From NCBI GenBank assembly GCA_943329845.2, contig CALQFM020000015.1, forward strand, positions 1 to 64,000: a stretch of 64,000 nucleotides of DNA. The letters run 5' to 3'. The position numbers were made by a program, and so were the translations under genes. The number at the start of each line of letters is the position of its first letter. Positions within the stretch are counted from its first letter, which is position 1. The notes under the pieces are model-generated. The model ran no database searches and had not been told where the DNA came from. It saw only the letters and a list, made by a program, of their open reading frames with translations. Shown here piece after piece: positions 5,194 through 6,993 of the stretch. The stretch comes from Candidatus Kuenenia stuttgartensis (GTDB lineage: Bacteria > Pseudomonadota > Alphaproteobacteria > SMXS01).

Positions 5194-5598
5194 ATGCGCC
5201 TTCGACTGCCGATTATCGTGGGCGCGCTGCTGCTGTGGAGCGGCGGCGCGTTCGCCCAGGCCGACAAGTTCGAGGACCAGCCGCCGGCGCCCGCCGGCGA
5301 CGGCGGACAGGGCACGCTGATCCAGATGTGCAACGAGGACGACGTGCAGGCCGCCCTGCGCGAGTGCCAGTCGAAGATCCGCTACTACGAGACCGAGATC
5401 CGTGAGTTCGAACGCCGCAAGGCGCGCAAGGACACGGACGCCACCTCGCGCCAGCTCCAGTGGCTGCGCAACATGCAGTACGACCTGACCCGCTACAAGG
5501 ACGCCTGCGCGAAGATCGAATACGGCCTGCAGCAACTCCGCGCCCATCCGGAAACCCGCTGCGACGCCAACGGCGAGAAGTTCAAGAAGGCGGAGTAG
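5194..5598 (+). CDS. Small secreted hypothetical protein
   Basis: Signal peptide MRLRLPIIVGALLLWSGGAFAQ; 2 nt after previous stop. Confidence 0.6.
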   Translation: MRLRLPIIVGALLLWSGGAFAQADKFEDQPPAPAGDGGQGTLIQMCNEDDVQAALRECQSKIRYYETEIREFERRKARKDTDATSRQLQWLRNMQYDLTRYKDACAKIEYGLQQLRAHPETRCDANGEKFKKAE

Positions 5599-6772
5599 CG
5601 GCCAGCAGCGCCGCTGCGTCCTCCAGTTTCATGGCCGACTGCGATCCGTCCCGCCGCCGCAGGGCGACGGAGCCGTCCGCCGCCTCGCGGTCGCCGACGA
5701 TGGCCATCACCGGAATGCCGGCCTCGTGGGCCCCGACGATGCGGCGGGACAGGGTCTCGTTGCCGTCCCGCATGACCACGCGCAGGCCCGCGCGGTCGAG
5801 GGTCTCCCACACCTGACGCGCGTAGCCGCCCTGCCGGTCCGAGACCGGCGCCACCGCCACCTGTTCCGGCGCGAGCCAGAACGGCAGCGCGCCGCCATGG
5901 TGTTCCAGCAGCACGCCGACGAAGCGGCCCATGGAACCGAACACGGCGTGATGGATCATCACCGGCACGGCGCGCGAGCCATCGGGCGCCACATAGGACG
6001 CCTCGAGCCGTCCCGGGAGGACGCAATCGAGCTGCACGGTACCGCACTGCCATGACCGGCCAAGCCGGTCGCGCAGGATGAACTCCAGCTTGGGGCCGTA
6101 GAACGCGCCCTCGCCCGGCTTGATGAAGAATGCCAGGCCACGCGACCGCGCCGCCTCCTCGAGCCGCGCCTCGGCCCAATCCCATTGCGCGTCGGAGCCG
6201 GCGCGCTGGTCCGGACGGGTCGCCAGCGCCACCTCATATCCGGAGAAGCCCAGCGCGGCATAGACCTCATGCAGCAGGTCGACGAACCGGCCCATCTCCT
6301 CCACCGCCTGATCCTCGTGGCAGAACACGTGGGCGTCGTCCTGCTCGAAGCCACGGGTACGCATCAGGCCGTGCATCGAGCCCGATGACTCGTTTCGATG
6401 GCACTGGCCGAACTCGGCGTAGCGGATCGGCAGCTCGCGCCACGAGCGCAGGCCCTTGTTGAAGATCTGCACGTGGCACGGGCACGACATGGGTTTCAAT
6501 GCCATCTCGCGGCCGCCCTCGTCCTCGACGAGGAACATGTTGTCGCGGAATTTCTCCCAGTGGCCGCTGCGTTCCCACAGCACGCGCGGCAGCACCATGG
6601 GGGTGCGCACCTCGGCATAGCCCAGGCGGCGCATGCGGCGTCTGATGTAGTCCTCCAGCACCCGGTAGACGGCATAGCCGCGCGGATGCCAGAACACCAT
6701 GCCGGGCGCGTCGTCCTGCAGGTGGTAGAGTTCGAGCCTGCTGCCCAGGCTGCGGTGATCGAGATCGTCCAT
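5582..6772 (-). CDS. Truncated threonyl-tRNA synthetase (catalytic and anticodon-binding domains only)
   Basis: Class II ThrRS motifs: HPRGYAVYRVLEDY, MALKPMSCPCHVQIFNKGLRSWRELPIRYAEFGQCHRNESSGSMHGLMRTRGFEQDDAHVFC, GEGAFYGPKLEF, CGTVQLD, HHAVFGSMGRF, C-terminal VPVMAIVGDRE-like. Starts at the point equivalent to the beginning of the catalytic domain, so TGS and N2 editing domains are absent. Confidence 0.93.
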   Translation of the reverse strand: MDDLDHRSLGSRLELYHLQDDAPGMVFWHPRGYAVYRVLEDYIRRRMRRLGYAEVRTPMVLPRVLWERSGHWEKFRDNMFLVEDEGGREMALKPMSCPCHVQIFNKGLRSWRELPIRYAEFGQCHRNESSGSMHGLMRTRGFEQDDAHVFCHEDQAVEEMGRFVDLLHEVYAALGFSGYEVALATRPDQRAGSDAQWDWAEARLEEAARSRGLAFFIKPGEGAFYGPKLEFILRDRLGRSWQCGTVQLDCVLPGRLEASYVAPDGSRAVPVMIHHAVFGSMGRFVGVLLEHHGGALPFWLAPEQVAVAPVSDRQGGYARQVWETLDRAGLRVVMRDGNETLSRRIVGAHEAGIPVMAIVGDREAADGSVALRRRDGSQSAMKLEDAAALLAATPPS

Positions 6773-6826
6773 TTGCTGTACTCCTTGGGTTGAGGGGCAC
6801 GGCGGGGCGTTCTGCTGCGCAAAAGA

Positions 6827-6856
6827 AAAGGCCCCGTCGTCGCCGGCGGGGCCTTT
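6827..6856 (-). terminator. Intrinsic terminator/attenuator in the leader of the truncated thrS
   Basis: - strand AAAGGCCCCG-CCGGCGACGA-CGGGGCCTTTTCTTTT: perfect 10-bp stem plus U-rich tract, 55 nt upstream of the synthetase start. Confidence 0.9.
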
Positions 6857-6877
6857 GCTGGTGAATGCGGTGAGAGT

Positions 6878-6958
6878 TTACCGCGCGCGACCACAAGACC
6901 GACCGCCGGAGGCGGTGGTCGTCGTCGTCGTGCTCGGGTTTTGGCGCATCGCGTTCAT
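6878..6958 (-). CDS. Threonine-rich leader peptide MNAMRQNPSTTTTTTASGGRSCGRAR
   Basis: ATG...TAA ORF with six consecutive Thr codons (ACG x4, ACC x2) followed by a terminator and then a ThrRS gene. Confidence 0.88.
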   Translation of the reverse strand: MNAMRQNPSTTTTTTASGGRSCGRAR

Positions 6959-6964
6959 GGCGGT

Positions 6965-6993
6965 TTTATGCTCTCGCGATGTCGCTCGGTCAA
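6965..6993 (-). promoter_or_regulatory. sigma70-like promoter for leader peptide and thrS
   Basis: - strand TTGACC-N17-CATAAA; the expected start lies at or next to the A of the leader ATG. Confidence 0.6.

Follow-up and report, generated by a model that had tools for sequence, protein, structure and literature searches.

The window analysed here is a stretch of 64,000 nucleotides. Its minus strand carries a gene for a short threonyl-tRNA synthetase (ThrRS) preceded by a compact leader region, with the following features (window coordinates).

6965-6993, minus strand: putative sigma70-type promoter, read from the sequence (TTGACC at 6993-6988, a 17-nt spacer, CATAAA at 6970-6965)
6958-6878, minus strand: leader ORF encoding MNAMRQNPSTTTTTTASGGRSCGRAR*, 26 amino acids with six consecutive Thr codons; orthologous Thr leaders exist across the clade of short ThrRSs
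6911-6920, minus strand: arm 1 (GACCACCGCC), overlapping the last Thr codons; its partner in the ribosome-free minimum free energy (MFE) structure is arm 2
6890-6909, minus strand: arm 2 (CCGGCGGUCGGUCUUGUGGU), common to the 1:2 protector and the 2:3 antiterminator
6843-6862, minus strand: arm 3 (ACCAGCAAAGGCCCCGCCGG), pairing with arm 2 in the antiterminator and, by its inner part, with arm 4 in the terminator
6821-6856, minus strand: intrinsic terminator AAAGGCCCCG...CGGGGCCUUU with UUUUCUUUU; hairpin and U tract are kept in homologues
6781-6786, minus strand: Shine-Dalgarno sequence AAGGAG of the ThrRS gene, read from the sequence
5582-6772, minus strand: short ThrRS, 396 amino acids, class II core plus anticodon-binding domain (TIGR00418, PF00587, PF03129)

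The gene product is a ThrRS by its class II core, its zinc site (C334/H385/H511), and its anticodon-binding domain, and among solved structures it is closest to catalytic fragments of bacterial ThrRS. Its match to TIGR00418, the ThrRS equivalog profile, spans only positions 172-558 of 565, and neither a TGS nor a SAD editing domain was found by Pfam or TIGR00418; the N-terminal TGS and SAD domains of a canonical full-length ThrRS are missing. The zinc ligands and the catalytic residues do not vary among the 44 rows classed as short (40 true clade members plus four fragments). The next gene upstream encodes a PhyH dioxygenase. A full-length ThrRS, 53% identical to the short one over the core, is present in the window's genome as well; SAD domains occur there in this full-length ThrRS and in one 891-amino-acid open frame, most likely AlaRS, and in no others.

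In the first-pass annotation, the gene was described as a truncated ThrRS behind a Thr leader. The short enzyme was confirmed, but decay of a housekeeping gene does not account for it. Short ThrRSs make up an old clade of their own, second ThrRSs that lack editing and exist beside the full-length enzyme; in a tree built from catalytic cores, a 100/100 branch separates the 40 short enzymes from the other sequences. Four further candidates (L039, L075, L105, and L185) were rejected as short enzymes; the tree places them among the full-length ones, and they are contig-edge or low-quality fragments.

Relatives of the short ThrRS at about 61 to 72% identity are found in Bradyrhizobium, Tardiphaga, Mesorhizobium loti, and metagenome-assembled genomes (MAGs) of Azospirillaceae, Kiloniellales, and Rhodospirillales. 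Within the window's genus, the gene exists in three of five other genomes having any ThrRS match; it is also present in several further alphaproteobacterial families and in another class. The named betaproteobacterial copies lie on Burkholderia and Caballeronia replicons, including the conjugative plasmid pM7012. A full-length thrS accompanies the short gene in nearly all genomes; one MAG (G396) is the exception. The short gene is mostly set apart from its neighbors, which vary by locus; thus, leader and gene appear to be passed on together, and this pairing of switch and gene seems to recur in many bacteria associated with soil or plants. On pM7012 of Burkholderia sp. M701 (L195; NC_022995.1), a six-Thr leader precedes the short ThrRS, and its location on a conjugative plasmid suggests that the leader-ThrRS cassette is able to move between cells.

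The Thr leader ORF proposed from the window alone was found at 6958-6878, and its 26 codons, with six Thr codons in a row, were counted on the minus strand. It has the character expected of the leader of a ribosome-mediated attenuator, namely, a short, conserved ORF, predicted to be translated, with codons cognate to the controlled gene. The gap between the CATAAA box and the leader ATG is 6 nt (minus strand, 6993-6958); a simple promoter scan misses the TTGACC/CATAAA pair because the -10 box has no T at position 6. In 27 of 29 representative thrS leaders, a TTGAC motif lies 35 to 39 nt 5' of the leader ATG, a spacing from which transcription is expected to start at that ATG or directly beside it. 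Thus, the leader ORF of the window is probably read from a leaderless transcript, as judged at the consensus level and by analogy with trpL of Sinorhizobium meliloti, where the trp attenuator RNA begins exactly at the trpL AUG and is translated (PMC7298713, PMC10117765).

Arms 1 to 4 and the terminator with its U tract were located where the first-pass annotation had drawn them. The ribosome-free MFE structure of the leader consists of 1:2 plus 3:4 (-68.2 kcal/mol; z = -4.7 versus dinucleotide shuffles). The helices 1:2, 2:3, and 3:4 are mutually exclusive, and the intrinsic terminator stands between the leader ORF and the ThrRS gene. The 2:3 helix, earlier given as 13 pairs, is real but was drawn too short, since GUGGU (6894-6890) extends it distally by pairing with the ACCAGC stretch (6862-6857).

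A Thr-containing leader ORF, followed by a hairpin and a T-rich tract, precedes the gene in all 40 clade members, and at least two adjacent Thr codons exist in 37 of these 40 leaders. The leader also precedes six betaproteobacterial-type copies (three in genomes of another class, three on named Burkholderia/Caballeronia replicons). The leader peptides range over TTTATAYGGSPAGCAR (Bradyrhizobium), TTATTSLGGSSPGRMR, and VTTTTTTTTTANGGPGGGCTS (other class); the length and the neighbors of the Thr run differ (TTTATA, TTATT, TTTTTTTTT), while Thr is retained. Weak leaders have two Thr codons (L012), three with none adjacent (L018), or three scattered ones (L134). Among 72 upstream regions of full-length thrS used as a control, a Thr run of at least three was found in two, one of which looks real. 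Judged by this comparison of sequences, the Thr leader and terminator of the window are not a chance occurrence, because the same placement is seen before every short ThrRS examined, versus one real case among 72 full-length thrS genes. The Thr run and the arms are conserved in orthologous upstream regions across about 46 loci.

The RNA model used in these searches (R1) also matches attenuators of other genes, asd among them, with the same GGCCCCGCC terminator, and its matches were therefore sorted by leader and downstream gene instead of by score. Other leader-peptide candidates among them are L136 (Met/Leu/Val/Ile-rich), L141 (Phe/Trp/Tyr-rich), L128, L135, and L147. The terminator finder was unsuccessful on L133, L143, L146, and L158, of which L146 was redone separately. 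At L146 (G058:C2:1206760-1206950), a full-length thrS is preceded by a Thr leader (MRTHPVLRSTATTTTTATGGRWRMRA) together with alternative hairpins; this is the one real case among the 72 controls and a convincing Thr attenuator ahead of a full-length gene; a short ThrRS was looked for in this genome (G058), and none was found.

The antiterminator is a long composite helix with a conserved GGCGG/CCGCC core and a distal helix that varies by lineage (CUGG/CCAG, UUUCG/CGAAG, GGUGGG/CCCACC, and UCUGGAG/CUUCAGA). Across 19 lineages, the native distal 2:3 duplex has -13.9 kcal/mol versus -11.9 kcal/mol for swapped arms, although in three of the 19, the window included, the own distal partner is not among the better ones. 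As only 54 of 20,000 swaps were as good as the native pairing, the distal arms covary between lineages, and this covariation lies outside the conserved core. Helix pair counts on an alignment of 31, dominated by Bradyrhizobium, exceed those of shuffles. Terminator pairs were left out of the counts on alignment A1 because it misregisters arm 4 in the window's genus, where the loop is one base shorter. A fifth arm, between the U tract and the thrS Shine-Dalgarno sequence, can pair with arm 4 and the terminator loop (6848-6800 in the window, and at homologous loci). RNA polymerase reaches it once the termination decision has been made; 39 of 20,000 swaps were as good in the corresponding test, so that some covariation between lineages is seen, and in full folds of the readthrough RNA this pairing was not formed consistently.

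Equilibrium folding with the full terminator was discarded as uninformative for a kinetic switch, since the terminator always wins, which implies that the switch depends on cotranscriptional kinetics. Instead, folds were made of RNA ending immediately 5' of arm 4, and to represent the ribosome, everything as far as 11 nt beyond the A-site codon was taken out. In 31 leaders, the probability that arm 3 is held upstream was 0.91 for the best Thr stall and 0.72 on average over Thr stalls; it was 0.29 when no ribosome was present and 0.08 when the ribosome stood on the stop codon. Antiterminator competence drops at the end of the Thr run. The corresponding values for 12 leaders outside this set-up were 0.84, 0.68, 0.48, and 0.13. 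By folding, the position of the ribosome on the cognate codons decides between antiterminator and terminator, in that a stall on Thr codons favors the antiterminator in homologous leaders and a ribosome at the stop codon does not. In the lineages L117, L121, L124, and L134, upstream sequence holds arm 3 even when no ribosome is present, and a default-off state would therefore need active translation there. The presence of a run of GC-rich Thr codons could partly reflect the sequence needs of arm 1, yet only the last codons lie within arm 1.

Conservation at about 46 loci, arm covariation, and stall-dependent folding support the arm logic, the Thr specificity, and the gene target of the first-pass proposal. 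We consider it very likely (about 90%) that the leader acts as a ribosome-mediated transcription attenuator, with charged tRNA-Thr as its signal and an inducible second ThrRS as its target, a reading built on comparative and modeled data. With ample Thr-tRNA, the ribosome would reach the leader stop codon and cover arm 2, 3:4 would form, and transcription would end at about 130 nt. With no ribosome, 1:2 is expected to form in the window sequence, and the outcome would also be termination. When Thr-tRNA is scarce (upon Thr starvation, or when the housekeeping ThrRS is lost or inhibited), the ribosome would stall on the Thr run and mask arm 1, 2:3 would form before arm 4 is made, and RNA polymerase would read into the ThrRS gene. 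The enzyme induced in this way would be active but unable to proofread by itself, and it would restore charging alongside the editing-competent full-length ThrRS, perhaps in heterodimers with it.

Three other explanations were weighed. (i) The attenuator may work as described and the short ThrRS may serve mainly to confer inducible tolerance of ThrRS inhibitors (borrelidin, obafluorin) and not as a starvation backup. An inhibited housekeeping ThrRS would trigger the switch, and the patchy distribution of the gene, its changing context, and the copy on a conjugative plasmid fit such a role. However, the positions of Leu489 (E. coli numbering), which is presumably linked to borrelidin, and of Gly463 are L and G in 44 of 44 rows, as in full-length enzymes. 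Gly463 has been named as a resistance-linked ThrRS residue (PMC11252418). We regard this role as rather unlikely. (ii) It is very improbable that the product of the ORF is a small Thr-rich protein with a function of its own and that the terminator behind it is an ordinary one, with ThrRS expressed from its own promoter downstream of that terminator. Action in trans is known for leader peptides (S. meliloti peTrpL; PMC7298713), and the C-terminal GG.S.G..R part of the leader peptide is conserved too. Yet the codons of this conserved part coincide exactly with arm 2; the order of leader, Thr run, and terminator is constant and their spacing similar; the distal arms covary at the RNA level; and the promoter scan found no consensus promoter between the terminator and the ThrRS gene. 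(iii) A T-box or other tRNA-binding RNA, or ThrRS autorepression, in place of ribosome stalling is scarcely credible, because, although such control of thrS is established (T-boxes in Firmicutes, autorepression in E. coli), no Rfam family, including the T-box and the enterobacterial Thr leader (thrABC), reached its gathering score anywhere in the window, and neither mechanism needs a conserved Thr-codon ORF.

If the attenuator reading holds, it raises the question of why a proofreading-free ThrRS should be induced when Thr-tRNA is short. One answer, speculative and of low probability in our view, is that fidelity is traded for charging: Thr-tRNA shortage would induce a ThrRS unable to edit Ser-tRNA-Thr, giving either regulated Ser-for-Thr mistranslation or fidelity-keeping heterodimers with the full-length enzyme, the whole forming a mobile stress cassette common to Alpha- and Betaproteobacteria, with the fifth RNA arm as a second, posttermination layer of control. 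The annotation is a bare "threonine--tRNA ligase" with no sign of conditional expression; thus, two thrS genes per genome need not be redundant.

Ribosome-mediated attenuation is known for amino acid operons (E. coli trp, thr, his, and leu), and the mechanism itself is classical (trp/thr/pheST type). The classical attenuators, S. meliloti trpL among them, share with the window a leader ORF of cognate codons, arms 1 to 4, and an intrinsic terminator, and trpL is leaderless, as the window leader appears to be (PMC7298713, PMC10117765). They control biosynthetic operons, whereas the window system would control a tRNA synthetase paralogue. Attenuators of synthetase genes have been described for pheST in gammaproteobacteria and trpS/leuS in Streptomyces (PMC1262725) and for hisS paralogues in Bacillus (PMC2965389), and Streptomyces lividans has a weak Thr leader, thrL, before thrS (PMC8079986). 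In all of these, as is predicted for the window, codon-specific stalling controls the cognate synthetase. Unlike the window leader with its six Thr codons and a terminator, thrL has two Thr codons only and no clear terminator. Thr leaders before thrS thus have some precedent in S. lividans, while the uniform link of a Thr attenuator to an editing-free backup ThrRS appears to be new. In our literature search, which had limited coverage, no synthetase attenuator was found that is tied to an editing-less ThrRS clade or located in Alpha- or Betaproteobacteria. A comparative attenuation study by Lopatovskaya et al. from 2010 reportedly dealt with aminoacyl-tRNA operons and may hold related predictions.

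Leaders with Thr and Lys codons (e.g., MSTIKTSTTTKTTASAGRSLVRAG) and the same architecture exist in the window's own genome (L143; G000:C49:31140-31312) and at L123, L131, L144, L154, L155, L156, and L158. The product of the gene after them begins with VAIVGATGAVG, and this gene, in the window's genome and others, is most likely asd. A leader of this type would monitor the aspartate pathway through both of its end products. Its published Sinorhizobium counterpart is SEP5 of S. meliloti, a Thr/Lys small ORF whose translation was demonstrated (PMC10117765). SEP5 resembles the window leader in being a Thr-rich alphaproteobacterial leader ORF and differs in that it precedes an aspartate-family gene and includes Lys codons.

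Anabaena T2 is a zinc starvation ThrRS with impaired proofreading that exists beside the essential full-length T1, which edits in trans in heterodimers (PMC4787780). It is likewise a stress-induced second ThrRS; however, T2 keeps a degenerate editing domain and is under Zur control, whereas the window ThrRS is without N-terminal domains and is predicted to be under attenuation control.

Bacillus subtilis thrZ encodes a second ThrRS that is T-box controlled and induced by uncharged tRNA-Thr. Both would be backup ThrRSs, with the difference that the thrZ T-box binds tRNA directly, whereas in the window the sensor would be a stalled ribosome. The window system would thus be an example, from Alpha- and Betaproteobacteria, of amino-acid-codon attenuation acting on a synthetase paralogue instead of a biosynthetic operon, and would parallel thrZ of Bacillus with its T-box control.
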